This document shows, piece by piece, positions 18,546 to 24,434 of a DNA stretch of 64,000 nucleotides; position 1 is the stretch's first letter; each line of letters starts with the position of its first letter. A program made the position numbers and the translations under genes. Where the stretch lies: the NCBI RefSeq assembly GCF_011049865.1, contig NZ_DRGY01000057.1, positions 56,780 to 120,779 on the forward strand, in the 5' to 3' direction. The notes beneath the pieces are model-generated. The model saw nothing but the letters and a program-made list of their open reading frames with translations. It was not told the DNA's origin and searched no databases. The stretch is from Marinobacter antarcticus. GTDB lineage: Bacteria > Pseudomonadota > Gammaproteobacteria > Pseudomonadales > Oleiphilaceae.

Positions 18546-18563
18546 GAGCCCAGGGAAGGGCTC
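18546..18563. terminator. Hairpin between convergent gor and the histidine kinase gene
   Basis: A perfect 6-bp stem GAGCCC/GGGCTC with a 6-base loop lies in the 25-bp space between the two convergent stops. There is no T-run, so its strength as a terminator is doubtful, but its place suggests it ends one or both transcripts. Confidence 0.45.
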
Positions 18564-20511
18564 AACAATCAGGCAACGTTATCCACCGGTCAATAACGGT
18601 CCTCAGATTTTCCTTCCTCACGGGCTTGGCAAGATAATCGTCCATGCCACTTTCAAGACAGTTGTGCTCGGTGCCGGGCAGTACATCGGCGGTGAGGGCG
18701 ATGACGGGCGTTCTGCCTTGGCCGCTGTCAACTTCCCATTTCCGTATATAGCGGGTTGTTTCATAGCCATCCATGACTGGCATCTGGCAGTCCATCAGAA
18801 TGACATCATAACCCTGATGACGGGTGCGAACTTTGTTCAGCGCTTCTTTGCCGTTTGTGACGGCTTCCGTGTGAAAACCAAGGCGGTTTAACAATGCTAC
18901 CGCAACGCGCTGATTTATCGGATTGTCCTCTACCACCAGCGCCTGCATTGAGAGGGGCGTTTGAGTGGGTAGCACCGGGTCTTGCGTCTTCGGTGTTTCT
19001 GCCGGAGATGCCAGTTCCAAAGGCAGCTCAAAGCGGAATGAAGAACCCTTGCCCGGGTCCGTTTCCACCTGTATGTGCCCGCCCAGAAGCTCAACCAGTC
19101 GCTGCACCAGAGACAGCCCCATGCCGGTGCCACCGAAATTTCGGGCGTTGCCCGCATCCAGTTGTTCAAAGGAACTGAAAATGTCTGTCAGTCGCTCATG
19201 GGGGATGCCGCTCCCCGAATCGCTTACAGAACAGCCCAGAACAATGCAGCCATATTCAACGCTCGTGTAGCTTACCTGAACGTTTACAAAGCCGTCGCCG
19301 GTGAACTTAACCGCGTTATCAAGCAAGCACGCAAGAATTTGTCGGAGTCGGGGAGCATCGCCCGTTACCAGAGATATTTCGGGCCAGTCCCCATCAAAAT
19401 CCAGTGTCAGCGCCAACCCCTGTTCTTCCGCTAAATGCCGGAAAGAGGCGACGCAATTCGTGATAAGCGTTGTCAGATCAAATACCTGTTGATCGAGCGC
19501 GACAGCGCCACTGTCCATTCGGGAATAATCGAGAATGTCGCTGATAACGGTGAGAAGGTCTTCTGTAGACTGGCGGGCGGTGCGCAAATAATCCTTTTGT
19601 TTCAGGCTTAACGGTTCATCTTGCGTCAGGTCAATCATCCCCAACACACCGTTGAGAGGCGTGCGTAATTCATGGCTCATGGTCGCCAGGAATTCGGATT
19701 TGGCGTAACTCGCCGTTTCCGCTTTTTCGCGGGCATGTTCCGAGGCCGCCAATGTTTGATCGCGGGATTTTCTCAATGTGCCGAGGTGCTCTGCCAGTTC
19801 ATTGAGCTGCTGTTCAATCGCGATAACTTCCCGGGAGTTTCGTCGCTGGTTCACTTTCGTAAGCCGGTAGTCTCGTTCAATCAGACGGCTGATACGCCCG
19901 GAAACCAGATCCATGGGCGATAGAATCGCGTTCAGTGTGTGTTTGATGACCAGAATGGTAAAGAGCAATAGCGAAAGCCCGATGGCCACCGATGACCAAA
20001 GTATGTCGCTGCGTCGCGCCTCCAGAATTCTGTCACTCACCCCTACCTGAACGGTGCCCACTCGCAACGCGCCCGACCCAAAGCCAAACTCCGGCTCAAA
20101 CCACTGGGTTTGACGATCAGTCTCAAGCTTCAGGGGTTTTTGAAGAATCTCCGCTTCAAAGATCTTGACCGTATTTTGCAGTGCATCTTCCGGAGTATCG
20201 TCGTGGGTCGCGAAACCCACTTGTTGACCCGCCACGTCATTGACGCGAATCCAGTCGGCCTTGCTGTAACGGATGGACTGGGACAGTATTTCTTGCAATG
20301 CCAACGTATTGCCGGAAACAACCGCATATTCCAGAGACGGTGCAAGGCTGTCGGCCAGCAACTGATTGCTGTCAGAGAGATCTCGTCTGGCATCTTCCAG
20401 CCGGGCAGACGTAAAGAACCCTATCAGGGTGACAAACATCACAATGGCGGGCAATGCGCCCAGCAGCAGCAGCTTTCGGGAAAGCGGAACACCAACGTTA
20501 GGCTTATTCAT
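18562..20511 (-). CDS. Membrane hybrid sensor histidine kinase with receiver domain
   Basis: A 649-residue BarA-like hybrid kinase. TM1 (about 13-30) and TM2 (about 172-192) enclose a periplasmic domain of about 140 residues. A HAMP-like linker and coiled coil follow, then HisKA with the phospho-accepting His in ATMSHELRTPLNGVLGMI (about 280), HATPase_c with DNAVKF, DSGSGI and FGGTGMGLSLV, and a C-terminal receiver (VILMDCQMPVMDGYE, Asp about 573). No Hpt domain or output domain is present, so phosphate must pass to a separate Hpt protein. The start overlaps the binding-protein stop by eight bases (ATGAATAA), so the kinase is co-translated with that gene. Confidence 0.92.
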   Translation of the reverse strand: MNKPNVGVPLSRKLLLLGALPAIVMFVTLIGFFTSARLEDARRDLSDSNQLLADSLAPSLEYAVVSGNTLALQEILSQSIRYSKADWIRVNDVAGQQVGFATHDDTPEDALQNTVKIFEAEILQKPLKLETDRQTQWFEPEFGFGSGALRVGTVQVGVSDRILEARRSDILWSSVAIGLSLLLFTILVIKHTLNAILSPMDLVSGRISRLIERDYRLTKVNQRRNSREVIAIEQQLNELAEHLGTLRKSRDQTLAASEHAREKAETASYAKSEFLATMSHELRTPLNGVLGMIDLTQDEPLSLKQKDYLRTARQSTEDLLTVISDILDYSRMDSGAVALDQQVFDLTTLITNCVASFRHLAEEQGLALTLDFDGDWPEISLVTGDAPRLRQILACLLDNAVKFTGDGFVNVQVSYTSVEYGCIVLGCSVSDSGSGIPHERLTDIFSSFEQLDAGNARNFGGTGMGLSLVQRLVELLGGHIQVETDPGKGSSFRFELPLELASPAETPKTQDPVLPTQTPLSMQALVVEDNPINQRVAVALLNRLGFHTEAVTNGKEALNKVRTRHQGYDVILMDCQMPVMDGYETTRYIRKWEVDSGQGRTPVIALTADVLPGTEHNCLESGMDDYLAKPVRKENLRTVIDRWITLPDC

Positions 20512-21439
20512 CGCGTTGCGCCTCTTGGCTGGTTAACAGCCGTTCTACTGCCTGAGCAATCTGCTCCCTGGATGCCAGAGGAATGTTCATTGAACGAGCA
20601 ACTTGCTGGTTGATTTCCAGTTGGAAATCAGAGGGATAATCCGGCGCCGGAAACTGACCGGTTTCAAAAAATACCTGCAGATACGCGGCGGCCATCTCGG
20701 CCATGACGGAAAACGATGGGTAGCCAGACGCCAGAGAGCCGGCTTTGACATACGCCTGGCTTGGGCCGATAACAATCCGGTTTCTGCGATAGGCGGTCAA
20801 CAGTATGTGTTTTATGGTTCTGGGGTTGTATATAACGTTGTCTGGCGCTGCCAGCAGAAAATCGCCGTAGCTCAACGCTCGTATAAGCGTTGGAATGAGC
20901 TGTTTGTCATCGTCCACAATGAAGAGGCGGGCCTCCAGATTATAGGGTTGGAGTTGGTCAATAAGGGTGTCGTAAAGTGCGGCGGAACCGGTTGTCGACA
21001 ACAGCGCGATTCGCGTAGCCTGCGGAAGAATAGCCTTGCCGAGCAATGCTTGCCGGAGTAACGGCACGTCGTAGTAGATTCCCGAGACCCGACCGGGTGA
21101 AAGCGTTGTGAAACCGTCAAGGAAATTCTGCGTGGCCAGCATCGCCAGCACAGGTGCCTTGCGGTTGGCTTGGCGAATACGGGAAAATGCGCCCGGGCCG
21201 ATCGTAACAATGGGCGCCTCATCGATGAGAGCCGCCTGTTTATCCGATAAGAGAATAAACTCTCGCTGGCTACCCAGGTTGAGCTTGAGAAGGTCAAGTA
21301 TGTGCTGGTCCAGCGCTTCATTGCCAGAGCCGGCCAGATAAACAGGCAAGCGATCACGCTCCTGACCCTGCGCAGGCGCATTACCGACAAGTATGGCCGC
21401 TACAATCGCAGCGAAAAGAAATTTTGCGATCAAAATCAT
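20504..21439 (-). CDS. Periplasmic ABC substrate-binding-like protein
   Basis: A 311-residue protein with a signal peptide ending at about PAQG (residue 25). The body resembles the PF04392 (TrpX-like) family of binding proteins: two lobes with VTIGPGAFSRI, APVLAMLATQNFL, GIYYDVPLLRQ, RIALLSTTGSAALY and DFLLAAPDNVIYNPRTI. No ABC permease or ATPase is nearby. It lies between the TonB receptor (14 bp upstream) and the hybrid kinase (8-bp overlap), which suggests that it hands a ligand to the kinase sensor domain, as LuxP does for LuxQ. Family assignment is by pattern only. Confidence 0.78.
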   Translation of the reverse strand: MILIAKFLFAAIVAAILVGNAPAQGQERDRLPVYLAGSGNEALDQHILDLLKLNLGSQREFILLSDKQAALIDEAPIVTIGPGAFSRIRQANRKAPVLAMLATQNFLDGFTTLSPGRVSGIYYDVPLLRQALLGKAILPQATRIALLSTTGSAALYDTLIDQLQPYNLEARLFIVDDDKQLIPTLIRALSYGDFLLAAPDNVIYNPRTIKHILLTAYRRNRIVIGPSQAYVKAGSLASGYPSFSVMAEMAAAYLQVFFETGQFPAPDYPSDFQLEINQQVARSMNIPLASREQIAQAVERLLTSQEAQRDE

Positions 21440-21453
21440 TCCATGATTGAAAA

Positions 21454-23655
21454 TCAGAAGCGGAGACCGGCTTCAACGAAAAACTGGTTCTGATCCTCAA
21501 TATTATTATCCGGGCTCATATCCGGATCTGTATTGAGGTAATGCTGTACGGTAAACGCGAACTCCATTGTGTACCGGGGCATGAAAATCGTTTTTACCAG
21601 ACGCAGGTCGAGGCGCCCGAAACGGGACTCTTTGAGTTGGTCGGCCCAGTAATAGGCAACGACTCCTTTTAGCCCGAAAGGAATATCCTGAATAAACGCC
21701 AGGCTACCTGAATGCCTTGCAGAGAGACGCCCCAAAAGTCCTACCTTGTACTCTTTTCTATCATTGTTGATCGCACTGTCACTAGAGATTTCCGGGCCAT
21801 TGTACCAGTCGTCCTGGTCGAGATAGCCGTAGCTGGCTCTTAGCGTGGTTCCGGGGTACTCAAGGGCGGCTTCCAGTTCAAAGCCCTTTTGATCGATGTC
21901 CACGTTGTTGTCGATCGTCCATTCCTCAAACCCGATAATGCCGCTGATCATATTCCGCAGTTGGTCCCTGAATACCCGAACTTCCAGCGAAAACTGACCC
22001 CGGTCCATGGGGAACAACCCGAAGTAACTGATCTCTCTTGAGATTATACTTTCTTCTGAAAGGTCTTCGCCCAACGTGACAAACCGCACATCGCTCCAGA
22101 CATCTGTACTCTCTACCCGAGATCCCTCATAGGCCGAGTATTGTGACGGCCTTACGTTGCGCAGCGTAAATCCGTAATCAGGATTCTGCTCAAATCCGTC
22201 TGGCGTGCGCACCGCTTTTGAATAAACGAATCTCAGAGCGTGGTTATTACCAAGCCTGAAATTCGCGGCAACCCGTGGAGAGAAATAACCCTCATGAGTG
22301 GTGGTTGTCCGTTCCCAGTTACCCCCGCCATTCAGCGTAAGCCAACTGATCGGAGTGTATTCCAGATTGCCGAATATTCTCGACTGATAGTCGTTTCCGC
22401 GCCCGTTGAAAAGCGTCTGAGAGCGATAGGTGTCTTTGCGATATCCCAACCCAGTGACCAGCTTCAGATCGTCACTGAATAACAGTGTGTCCTGCAGTTC
22501 AAACTCCAGCCGGGAATCTTCGGAGTCTGAGTTTACATCAGCCATGAGCGGGGTTCCGCCTGGCTGGAAGCACAAAGCTTCATTCGCGTCGTCGAATACC
22601 AGAACGTTGTTGGCGAGACAATTTACCGCCGATTCGGGTATGGCGATCGGCCAGCGTTGTCGGCGCTCGAAGTTCTCGAAGTTCACCTGAATGTGGAAAA
22701 AGTGGGTTTGTGATGGTGTGAAATTAAGCTGCGTCTGCAGGTAGAAATCCCGAACCTGGATGTCCGGGTTGGCCAGGGGAGAGAGTTCTCCGCTTTTGAA
22801 CATATCTTCTTCATTGACGCCATCAACCACGCCCGCGCGAATGTCCGCGTTAAAACCGGAGTTTACTTTTAGCCGTGAGTCGTACGTCAAGACATTGATA
22901 TCCTGACCGTCGTGGAAAGGTGTCCGCATCTTGTCTTCGATCTGATAATCAAAACCGTCAAACTTGCGTTTTTCGTAAGCCACTCGCCAATCATAGCGTT
23001 CGCTCACATCGCCAATCGACGCAAAGGTGCGAACGTAATTTCTGGAACCTCGAACAACCCGCACTTCCTTACCCGACGTGTCTGAAGGACTGCGAGTAAT
23101 AATGTTGATGGTTCCAAGAAAAGCATTTATGCCATAAGCCGCGGCGTTCGGCCCCCGGCTTACCTCGATTCTTTCGATCGTCTCCAACGGAACCGGCATG
23201 GTTTGCCAATCCATATCAGAGAGAGTGGCGCGGTGCGCTGTCCGGCCATCAACCAGAACCTGCATGCGCCGCTGTTCGTAGTGCACGGTACCGTGATATG
23301 TGGTGACCGGTGTACTGCTGCCAACGTCTCCCACCACCATGCCCGGAACCAGGCGAAATACCTCTACCAGGTTCATGATGCCGAGATCACGAATCAGTTC
23401 ACCGGTGATCACCGTGGTGGTTCCTGGAACTCGGGTTTTGGGCTGGCGCAACCGTGTGGTTGTCAGCACTTCTGGTATCTCGTCGTTGAATCCGTAGAAG
23501 CTGGTCTCCTCGGATTCATCCGGGAGTGGCTTTGCCGCTGCCGGGCTCAGGAACACAACACTCGCAAGGCCACCCGCAAGCCCGGTCGCTAAAATACGGT
23601 ACAGGCGGGACACTGAACCTCGACGAGTCAGGTTGTTGAAATTCGTAAGGAGCAT
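21454..23655 (-). CDS. TonB-dependent outer-membrane receptor
   Basis: A 733-residue protein. After a signal peptide (to about residue 41, SPAAA) comes a possible TonB box (EVLTTT), then the plug domain (VPGTTTVITGELIRDLGIMNLVEVFRLVPGM ... IERIEVSRGPNAAAYGINAFLGTINIITRSP, about 75-190) and a 22-strand-type barrel ending in aromatic Phe (VEAGLRF). Such receptors import scarce ligands such as siderophores, cobalamin or glycans using TonB energy; the ligand is unknown. There is no Fur-box-like sequence that I could see upstream. It leads a three-gene operon with the binding protein and the hybrid kinase. Confidence 0.92.
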   Translation of the reverse strand: MLLTNFNNLTRRGSVSRLYRILATGLAGGLASVVFLSPAAAKPLPDESEETSFYGFNDEIPEVLTTTRLRQPKTRVPGTTTVITGELIRDLGIMNLVEVFRLVPGMVVGDVGSSTPVTTYHGTVHYEQRRMQVLVDGRTAHRATLSDMDWQTMPVPLETIERIEVSRGPNAAAYGINAFLGTINIITRSPSDTSGKEVRVVRGSRNYVRTFASIGDVSERYDWRVAYEKRKFDGFDYQIEDKMRTPFHDGQDINVLTYDSRLKVNSGFNADIRAGVVDGVNEEDMFKSGELSPLANPDIQVRDFYLQTQLNFTPSQTHFFHIQVNFENFERRQRWPIAIPESAVNCLANNVLVFDDANEALCFQPGGTPLMADVNSDSEDSRLEFELQDTLLFSDDLKLVTGLGYRKDTYRSQTLFNGRGNDYQSRIFGNLEYTPISWLTLNGGGNWERTTTTHEGYFSPRVAANFRLGNNHALRFVYSKAVRTPDGFEQNPDYGFTLRNVRPSQYSAYEGSRVESTDVWSDVRFVTLGEDLSEESIISREISYFGLFPMDRGQFSLEVRVFRDQLRNMISGIIGFEEWTIDNNVDIDQKGFELEAALEYPGTTLRASYGYLDQDDWYNGPEISSDSAINNDRKEYKVGLLGRLSARHSGSLAFIQDIPFGLKGVVAYYWADQLKESRFGRLDLRLVKTIFMPRYTMEFAFTVQHYLNTDPDMSPDNNIEDQNQFFVEAGLRF

Positions 23656-23786
23656 GGTTGTCGTTCTATAATCGGTTTGGTGAAAGGCGGCGGCGTGGTT
23701 TTCGAGCTCTTAGCCATCGTATTTGACTACACGCCATTTGTCTCTCAAAAATGTAATGAATTGGAAAGGTGGGGGAAAAGCCAGAC

Positions 23787-24434
23787 ATGAATTGCTGGGA
23801 ACTTCTTGGAATTGAGCCTACTCGCGATCATCAGCGGATTCACGACGCCTATGAGAGCCAGCTCCGTGACGCTTCAGATGAACAAGCGATACAGCTTAAA
23901 GAGGCATTAAAGGAAGCGGTTGGCATGCCCGAAAACGCAGAGAAACATGAGCTGAACGCATCAGACGGTCAGGTTGTGCGTGAAGTGATTATCCAGATCA
24001 AGGCGCTTTTAAACGATTCCGGCAGAACCCGGGATGCGGGTATATGGAAAGCGGTACTCTGCGAGCCACCGGCCGATCAATTGCCCTTGCGTCGTGAAAT
24101 CGGGCGGCAATTGGAGCCACAGCTTCGCCCCATGGCCGAAAATGGCAGCTTTCCAGCGCCGGTTGTGGGCTTCCTCGCTGAATGGTTTGACTGGCACAGC
24201 CTGCAGGATGCGTTGGCTCAGGAAGACGACCGCAACCACCCCGAGCGGTACAGTGCAAAGGGGATTGCTGTTCAGCGCGCAGATCAGCGTACAGAGGAGG
24301 GCACAGAGGATAATGAAAATGGGAGCGCAGATTCAGAGCCGCGCCAAATCGTCAACTTCTGGCCTGCCGTCATTGGGTGGATCATCGGGCTTGTGATACT
24401 TGCCATTCTTTTCGGCGGAATGAGCGGCGGCTGA
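23787..24434 (+). CDS. J-domain-like protein with C-terminal membrane anchor
   Basis: A 215-residue protein. The first 30 residues (CWELLGIEPTRDHQRIHDAYES) look like helices I-II of a J domain, but the His-Pro-Asp loop needed to stimulate DnaK is not visible, so any co-chaperone role is doubtful. The middle is acidic and helical; a single TM helix (WPAVIGWIIGLVILAILFGG, about 190-210) ends the protein, so it is probably tail-anchored. The ORF track starts at GTG 23769; the ATG at 23787, preceded by a GGGGGAAAAG stretch, is preferred. It is divergent from the TonB receptor gene. Confidence 0.6.
   Translation: MNCWELLGIEPTRDHQRIHDAYESQLRDASDEQAIQLKEALKEAVGMPENAEKHELNASDGQVVREVIIQIKALLNDSGRTRDAGIWKAVLCEPPADQLPLRREIGRQLEPQLRPMAENGSFPAPVVGFLAEWFDWHSLQDALAQEDDRNHPERYSAKGIAVQRADQRTEEGTEDNENGSADSEPRQIVNFWPAVIGWIIGLVILAILFGGMSGG

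Follow-up and report, generated by a model that had tools for sequence, protein, structure and literature searches.

The hybrid histidine kinase PA1611 of Pseudomonas aeruginosa modulates GacS/Rsm, by which cells switch from a motile to a sessile life and back. It is reported to bind RetS and relieve GacS, its own phosphorelay residues being dispensable, and the LadS/PA1611/RetS switch was stated to be unique to Pseudomonas (PMC4866733). PA1611, ErcS' and SagS also feed HptB (PMC5992135; PMC11330419). Expression of wild-type PA1611 is very low (PMC5992135), which makes it uncertain how much the RetS contact matters physiologically. No known signal for the kinase was found in the literature; the papers found treat the kinase itself or the PA1612-PA1611 operon, and our search, which covered few subscription journals, returned none that names a receptor and a binding protein as its input. 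Here we analyze a three-gene locus of Marinobacter antarcticus, lying in a 64,000-nucleotide stretch of contig NZ_DRGY01000057.1 (positions 56,780 to 120,779; the whole stretch is called the window). It encodes a TonB-dependent receptor, a periplasmic binding protein and a hybrid kinase that, like PA1611, is GacS related and Hpt free; the same gene order occurs in Pseudomonas-like genomes. We lean toward the view, with modest confidence, that this is a conserved sensory module in which a PA1611-type kinase would take its input from the binding protein and would, in several Marinobacter lineages, have a contact role free of catalysis.

Other described systems share parts of this arrangement. 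LuxP-LuxQ and TorT-TorS likewise pair a binding protein with a hybrid kinase and no transporter; the module differs in having a TonB-dependent receptor in the operon, a binding protein of the ABC_sub_bind/TrpX type, an sCache-like sensor, and a GacS-type kinase. The analogy with LuxP-LuxQ drawn in a first-pass annotation of this DNA is fair for a binding protein working with a kinase, but does not extend to the families involved. GacS/BarA resembles the kinase in its sCache_4-type sensor, HAMP, HisKA, HATPase and receiver domains but has an Hpt domain and is not encoded alongside a binding protein or receptor. FecA-FecR also links an outer-membrane receptor to signaling; here, however, the receptor has no extra N-terminal signaling domain, no FecR or ECF sigma factor gene is adjacent, and the proposed route runs from binding protein to kinase.

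Conservation of the three genes and the PA1611 position

The three genes and the domains of the kinase are as follows.

21454..23655, minus strand: TonB-dependent receptor, 733 amino acids (Pfam Plug, E 5e-16; barrel, E 5e-17)
20504..21439, minus strand: periplasmic binding protein, 311 amino acids, diverged ABC_sub_bind/TrpX type (profile match, model, Foldseek)
18562..20511, minus strand: hybrid histidine kinase, 649 amino acids, GacS/BarA type, PA1611-like (Pfam; nearest paralogue GacS)
20002..20406, minus strand: periplasmic sensor domain of the kinase, sCache-like, residues ~36-170 (PF09984 matches of relatives, model, Foldseek)
19510..19707, minus strand: DHp domain of the kinase, HisKA 269-334, phospho-acceptor box SHELRTP with H280 (Pfam HisKA and alignment)
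19018..19365, minus strand: ATPase domain of the kinase, HATPase_c 383-498, with N, G1 and G2 boxes intact (Pfam HATPase_c)
18595..18942, minus strand: receiver domain of the kinase, residues 524-639 (Pfam Response_reg)

The gene coordinates bear out the 14-bp gap between receptor and binding protein and the 8-bp overlap between binding protein and kinase that had been noted at the outset. Relatives were sought with the binding protein alone, by profile search, in an order-wide sample of 295 genomes from 118 genera, so that the neighboring genes are independent evidence. (A single binding protein sequence gave no matches in a contig scan, whereas an alignment query succeeded.) The protein was found in 98 of the 295 genomes and 40 of the 118 genera. 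Within the genus, a whole-genome search recovered it from 36 of 37 genomes, including that of the window; the remaining genome is 62% complete.

The neighbors travel with it. All 82 Marinobacteraceae loci have the kinase and 81 have the receptor, the one without it being close to the end of a contig; the relative Tamilnaduibacter is among the named loci with the trio. At the 61 order-wide loci mapped, the kinase gene adjoins in 55, the receptor gene also in 55 (50 upstream, 5 downstream), and both in 51; misses at L185, L219, L186 and L223 are contig ends or gene-calling problems. The frames of binding protein and kinase abut or overlap in 129/137 loci. Across families, the trio is found at several unrelated chromosomal sites (mnmE-mnmG, gpsA-fabA, and next to gor and gsp genes), and its gene order takes at least two forms, L224 for example reading binding protein-receptor-kinase. 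The expectation that the three genes stay together across genomes thus holds. Because order and orientation are kept across the genus and many genera of the order, the trio is not a chance arrangement. We found no description of such a module in the literature on the trio, on PF04392 with kinases, or on PA1612/PA1613.

In five Pseudomonas-like loci (L179, L181, L195, L206 and L207; GC content of 62-65% in the three genomes measured), gpsA lies on one side of the trio and fabA-fabB on the other; the PA1612-PA1611 operon lies directly upstream of fabAB (PMC3462791). The Marinobacter trio sits elsewhere. Its kinase shares 36% identity over 639 amino acids with the one occupying the PA1611 position in a Pseudomonas-like genome and fits the PA1611-type architecture (HisKA-HATPase-receiver, GacS related, no Hpt), and its receptor and binding protein are 32% and 34% (the latter over 187 amino acids) identical to the proteins at that position. 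PA1613 we take to be a TonB-dependent receptor. Its place among iron-acquisition proteins is weak support for this (PMC9864456). Since the trio is kept together across the order, receptor and binding protein are probably the unrecognized input, the missing sensor end, of the PA1611-type kinase. Should the operon partners of PA1611 indeed be a receptor and a binding protein, its signal could be sought directly in a ligand-binding experiment. In contrast to the published Pseudomonas-only statement, kinases resembling PA1611 and accompanied by both input genes occur in dozens of genera across the order.

Several loci vary the theme. Two tandem binding protein genes lie between receptor and kinase in a single genus (f39 g78; L174, L177, L182 and L183), and two tandem receptor genes precede the binding protein in L209, L214 and L222. 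One Marinobacter genome has a second, diverged system in the order binding protein-kinase-receptor, with an Hpt-bearing kinase (L052; G009:C12:393500-408500) and a NarL-type regulator nearby (match at G009:C12:406341). L227 and L229 have a GC content of 40-42%, and in L227 a NarL-type regulator lies three genes upstream of the receptor.

Families and folds of the three proteins

A single-sequence Pfam search assigned the binding protein of the window to no family. Its family profile, however, matches PDB chain 3lft, bound to L-Trp (E 2.4e-5), and order-wide relatives score 20.7-23.8 bits on PF04392, below the Pfam cut-off of 25.9. By sequence, then, it is homologous to ABC_sub_bind (PF04392), although the curated threshold does not admit it to the family. 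An AlphaFold2 model (pLDDT 90.7) predicts a TrpX/CD0873-type fold, with 3lkv, 3lft and CD0873 as the best Foldseek matches (E 6e-14 to 1.5e-10). P126, Q130, D200, G234, A237 and N277, residues common to the family and 3lft, are retained; the pair Y217-R218, which 3lft lacks, is characteristic of the module.

Unlike the binding proteins of ABC transporters, this protein is not encoded with an ATPase. A motif scan found no ABC ATPase in the operon at any of 143 loci, with six loci having one several kilobases off; the scan is only moderately sensitive, detecting 4/8 canonical PF04392 control loci. Within that sensitivity, homologues of the binding protein do not sit beside ABC transporter genes, an arrangement that, if usual, would have spoken against the module idea of the first-pass annotation. 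ABC_sub_bind domains are fused to HisKA-HATPase in L251 and to GGDEF-EAL in L250, L252 and L255, and thus such domains can feed signaling outputs directly.

The nearest paralogue of the kinase in its own genome (43% identity over DHp-ATPase) is a 983-amino-acid GacS/BarA-type kinase with the layout sCache_4-HAMP-HisKA-HATPase-REC-Hpt. A cysM-like gene lies alongside, a neighborhood that we take to be a mark of GacS. The kinase itself is, on sequence grounds, a paralogue of GacS/BarA whose sensor is of the sCache type and which has no Hpt domain. At 306 bits against a LuxQ cut-off of 1200, it is not LuxQ. Its H, N, G1 and G2 boxes and its receiver are all intact, and by these motifs it is predicted to be active. 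The first-pass annotation was right that it is a hybrid kinase with a periplasmic sensor part, of about 135 residues, and with neither Hpt nor output domain; Pfam and NCBIfam show only HisKA, HATPase_c and the receiver. PF09984 (sCache_4) was matched in 51/88 aligned sensor domains, that of the window not among them. The model of the sensor (pLDDT 85.5) gave weak to moderate Foldseek matches, best to CdgS9/LapD and then to WalK and CitA. An unrooted DHp-ATPase tree, many of whose branches are weak, places GacS close to the longer module kinases of other families that carry an Hpt domain; outside Marinobacteraceae, some Hpt-bearing module kinases have a NarL-type regulator just upstream.

The receptor begins with a TonB-box-like stretch, IPEVLTTTRL, and its nearest solved relatives by profile are CirA and BtuB, the likeness lying mostly in the plug region. 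Iron regulation of the operon was considered and rejected, as no upstream Fur-like box rose above the shuffled background. The receptor may import the ligand or may simply be a member of the operon.

Recurrent receiver loss in Marinobacter

Sixteen Marinobacter loci in the tree encode a kinase without a receiver. In most of these, the His box is altered (SRDL, SQEL, SNEL, SDEL, RQEL or SYEL) or the ATP boxes are broken, whereas SHELRTP is kept in every receiver-bearing Marinobacter kinase. Mapped on a tree of five neighboring genes, receiver loss occurred six to seven times independently in Marinobacter if loss is irreversible, the count that we adopt, or five times if it is reversible. L097, receiver-less and yet nearly intact, is the sister of the decayed M. 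litoralis group, which suggests that loss of the receiver precedes the other decay. Outside Marinobacter, module kinases are almost all intact, although L172 and L225 are degenerate too. In L066 and L106, the kinase is split into two open frames (one an Ion Torrent assembly, the other M. salarius R9SW1), possibly by sequencing errors.

Catalytic loss has taken place under selection. All 16 receiver-less kinases retain open frames, and dN/dS of the kinase core is 0.04-0.26 in receiver-less pairs, compared to 0.02-0.08 in intact pairs, the M. litoralis pairs being as low as intact kinases. Binding protein and receptor are constrained in both kinds of pair. By segment, in a test with only five receiver-less pairs, relaxation was not measurable in the periplasmic domain (P = 0.30), was found in HAMP (P = 0.005) and DHp (P = 0.002), and was a tendency in the ATPase domain (P = 0.07). 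Recent pseudogene decay as the entire story is disfavored by the dN/dS values and open frames. Because the frame, the sensor domain, the binding protein and the receptor stay under purifying selection despite catalytic decay, the sequences point to a noncatalytic role of the kinase in these lineages. The histidine pseudokinases RetS, DivL and the ChrS variant also signal through a kinase fold without catalysis of their own; those of the module differ in having arisen repeatedly in one orthologous locus that has intact relatives. Repeated origin of this kind, with intact sisters, offers a natural test of what the kinase fold does without catalysis. The chain of import, capture and signaling first proposed for this operon is accordingly incomplete in its simple form, capture followed by phosphorylation: several Marinobacter kinases of the same operon look catalytically dead and are nevertheless conserved.

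Signaling partners and competing explanations

We imagine the receptor as the outer-membrane part of the module and the binding protein as its periplasmic ligand-binding subunit, departed from ABC transport. Alone or liganded, the binding protein would contact the sCache domain and so set the state of the GacS-family kinase. With a receiver, the intact kinase would probably phosphorylate a separate Hpt protein, along the route HptB to HsbR to HsbA, and may additionally work by direct contact inside the GacS multikinase network. The receiver-less kinases would have only the contact function left, relaying the ligand state through heterodimerization with another kinase, of which GacS is the likeliest candidate; for this, RetS-PA1611 in Pseudomonas is a precedent (PMC4866733).

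That the partner of the kinase is encoded elsewhere agrees with the genomes, which offer HptB-HsbR-HsbA and the GacS network as candidates. In Marinobacter, genes for a STAS protein, a receiver-SpoIIE phosphatase and a stand-alone Hpt protein are consecutive among flagellar genes, forming an HsbA-HsbR-HptB-like set, and this is the likely relay partner; in the genome of the window, a contig opens at a fliK-like gene, just past the site where the set is expected. GacS is present in that genome and in 9/9 receiver-less Marinobacter genomes tested. The suggestion that co-occurrence would single out an orphan Hpt or response regulator did not work out when followed through co-loss: Hpt proteins and NarL-type regulators are abundant, and GacS and, mostly, the HptB-like Hpt are kept where the kinase looks dead.

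Several points weigh against the sensory module as we read it. The HptB-like protein is retained in most receiver-less genomes (the stand-alone Hpt is missing only in the ELB17-like genomes G004 and G026), so no co-loss backs the relay. RetS, the partner of PA1611, is unlikely as a partner in the species of the window: only one 7TMR-DISMED2 protein, of 591 amino acids, was found in its genome and none in G004. The order-wide loci L227 and L229 keep receptor and binding protein and appear truly to have no neighboring kinase. Finally, the equation with PA1613-1612-1611 is based on synteny in Pseudomonas-like genomes and the cited papers, rather than on the P. aeruginosa sequences.

One can also envision that the kinase works mainly by contact, receptor and binding protein setting the state of a protein of the PA1611 type, which would modulate GacS through heterodimerization; on at least six occasions, Marinobacter lineages could therefore do without the receiver and catalytic residues and still keep the protein. 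We regard this as possible but doubtful. Also unlikely is ordinary nutrient sensing by the logic of LuxP-LuxQ and TorT-TorS, in which the receptor imports, the binding protein presents the ligand, the kinase acts by phosphorelay only, and the receiver-less kinases are decaying. The near-universal integrity of module kinases outside Marinobacter fits this well, as do the complete phosphorelays formed where an Hpt-bearing kinase adjoins a NarL-type regulator and the relaxed kinase core of some receiver-less pairs. It sits poorly with 16 open frames, with kinase-core dN/dS well below 1 and in M. litoralis equal to that of intact kinases, with a periplasmic domain not measurably relaxed, and with the ability of PA1611 to act on RetS without its own phosphorelay residues (PMC4866733).

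Receptors of this class are usually importers and the binding protein comes from an ABC family, so both might serve nutrient uptake through an unlinked permease, the kinase being a cotranscribed regulator with no physical coupling to the binding protein. We consider this improbable: the scan gave 0/143 loci with an ATPase in the operon, no Fur-like box stands out from the shuffled background, and binding protein and kinase are the tightest gene pair, mostly overlapping. Chance or neutral persistence of ancestral neighbors could draw on the wider Marinobacter neighborhood, which is syntenic along with the trio in the genomes mapped, but retention at unrelated sites across families and in more than one gene order makes it very improbable.

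Two further observations concern other genes. In L253 (4434-6893), ABC_sub_bind and an outer-membrane efflux protein (OEP) domain are joined in one protein, next to efflux-pump-like genes. Upstream of the receptor and divergent from it, at 23769-24434 of the window, lies a gene whose product matches no Pfam family above the cut-off, has a J-domain-like N terminus, and is kept across Marinobacter.

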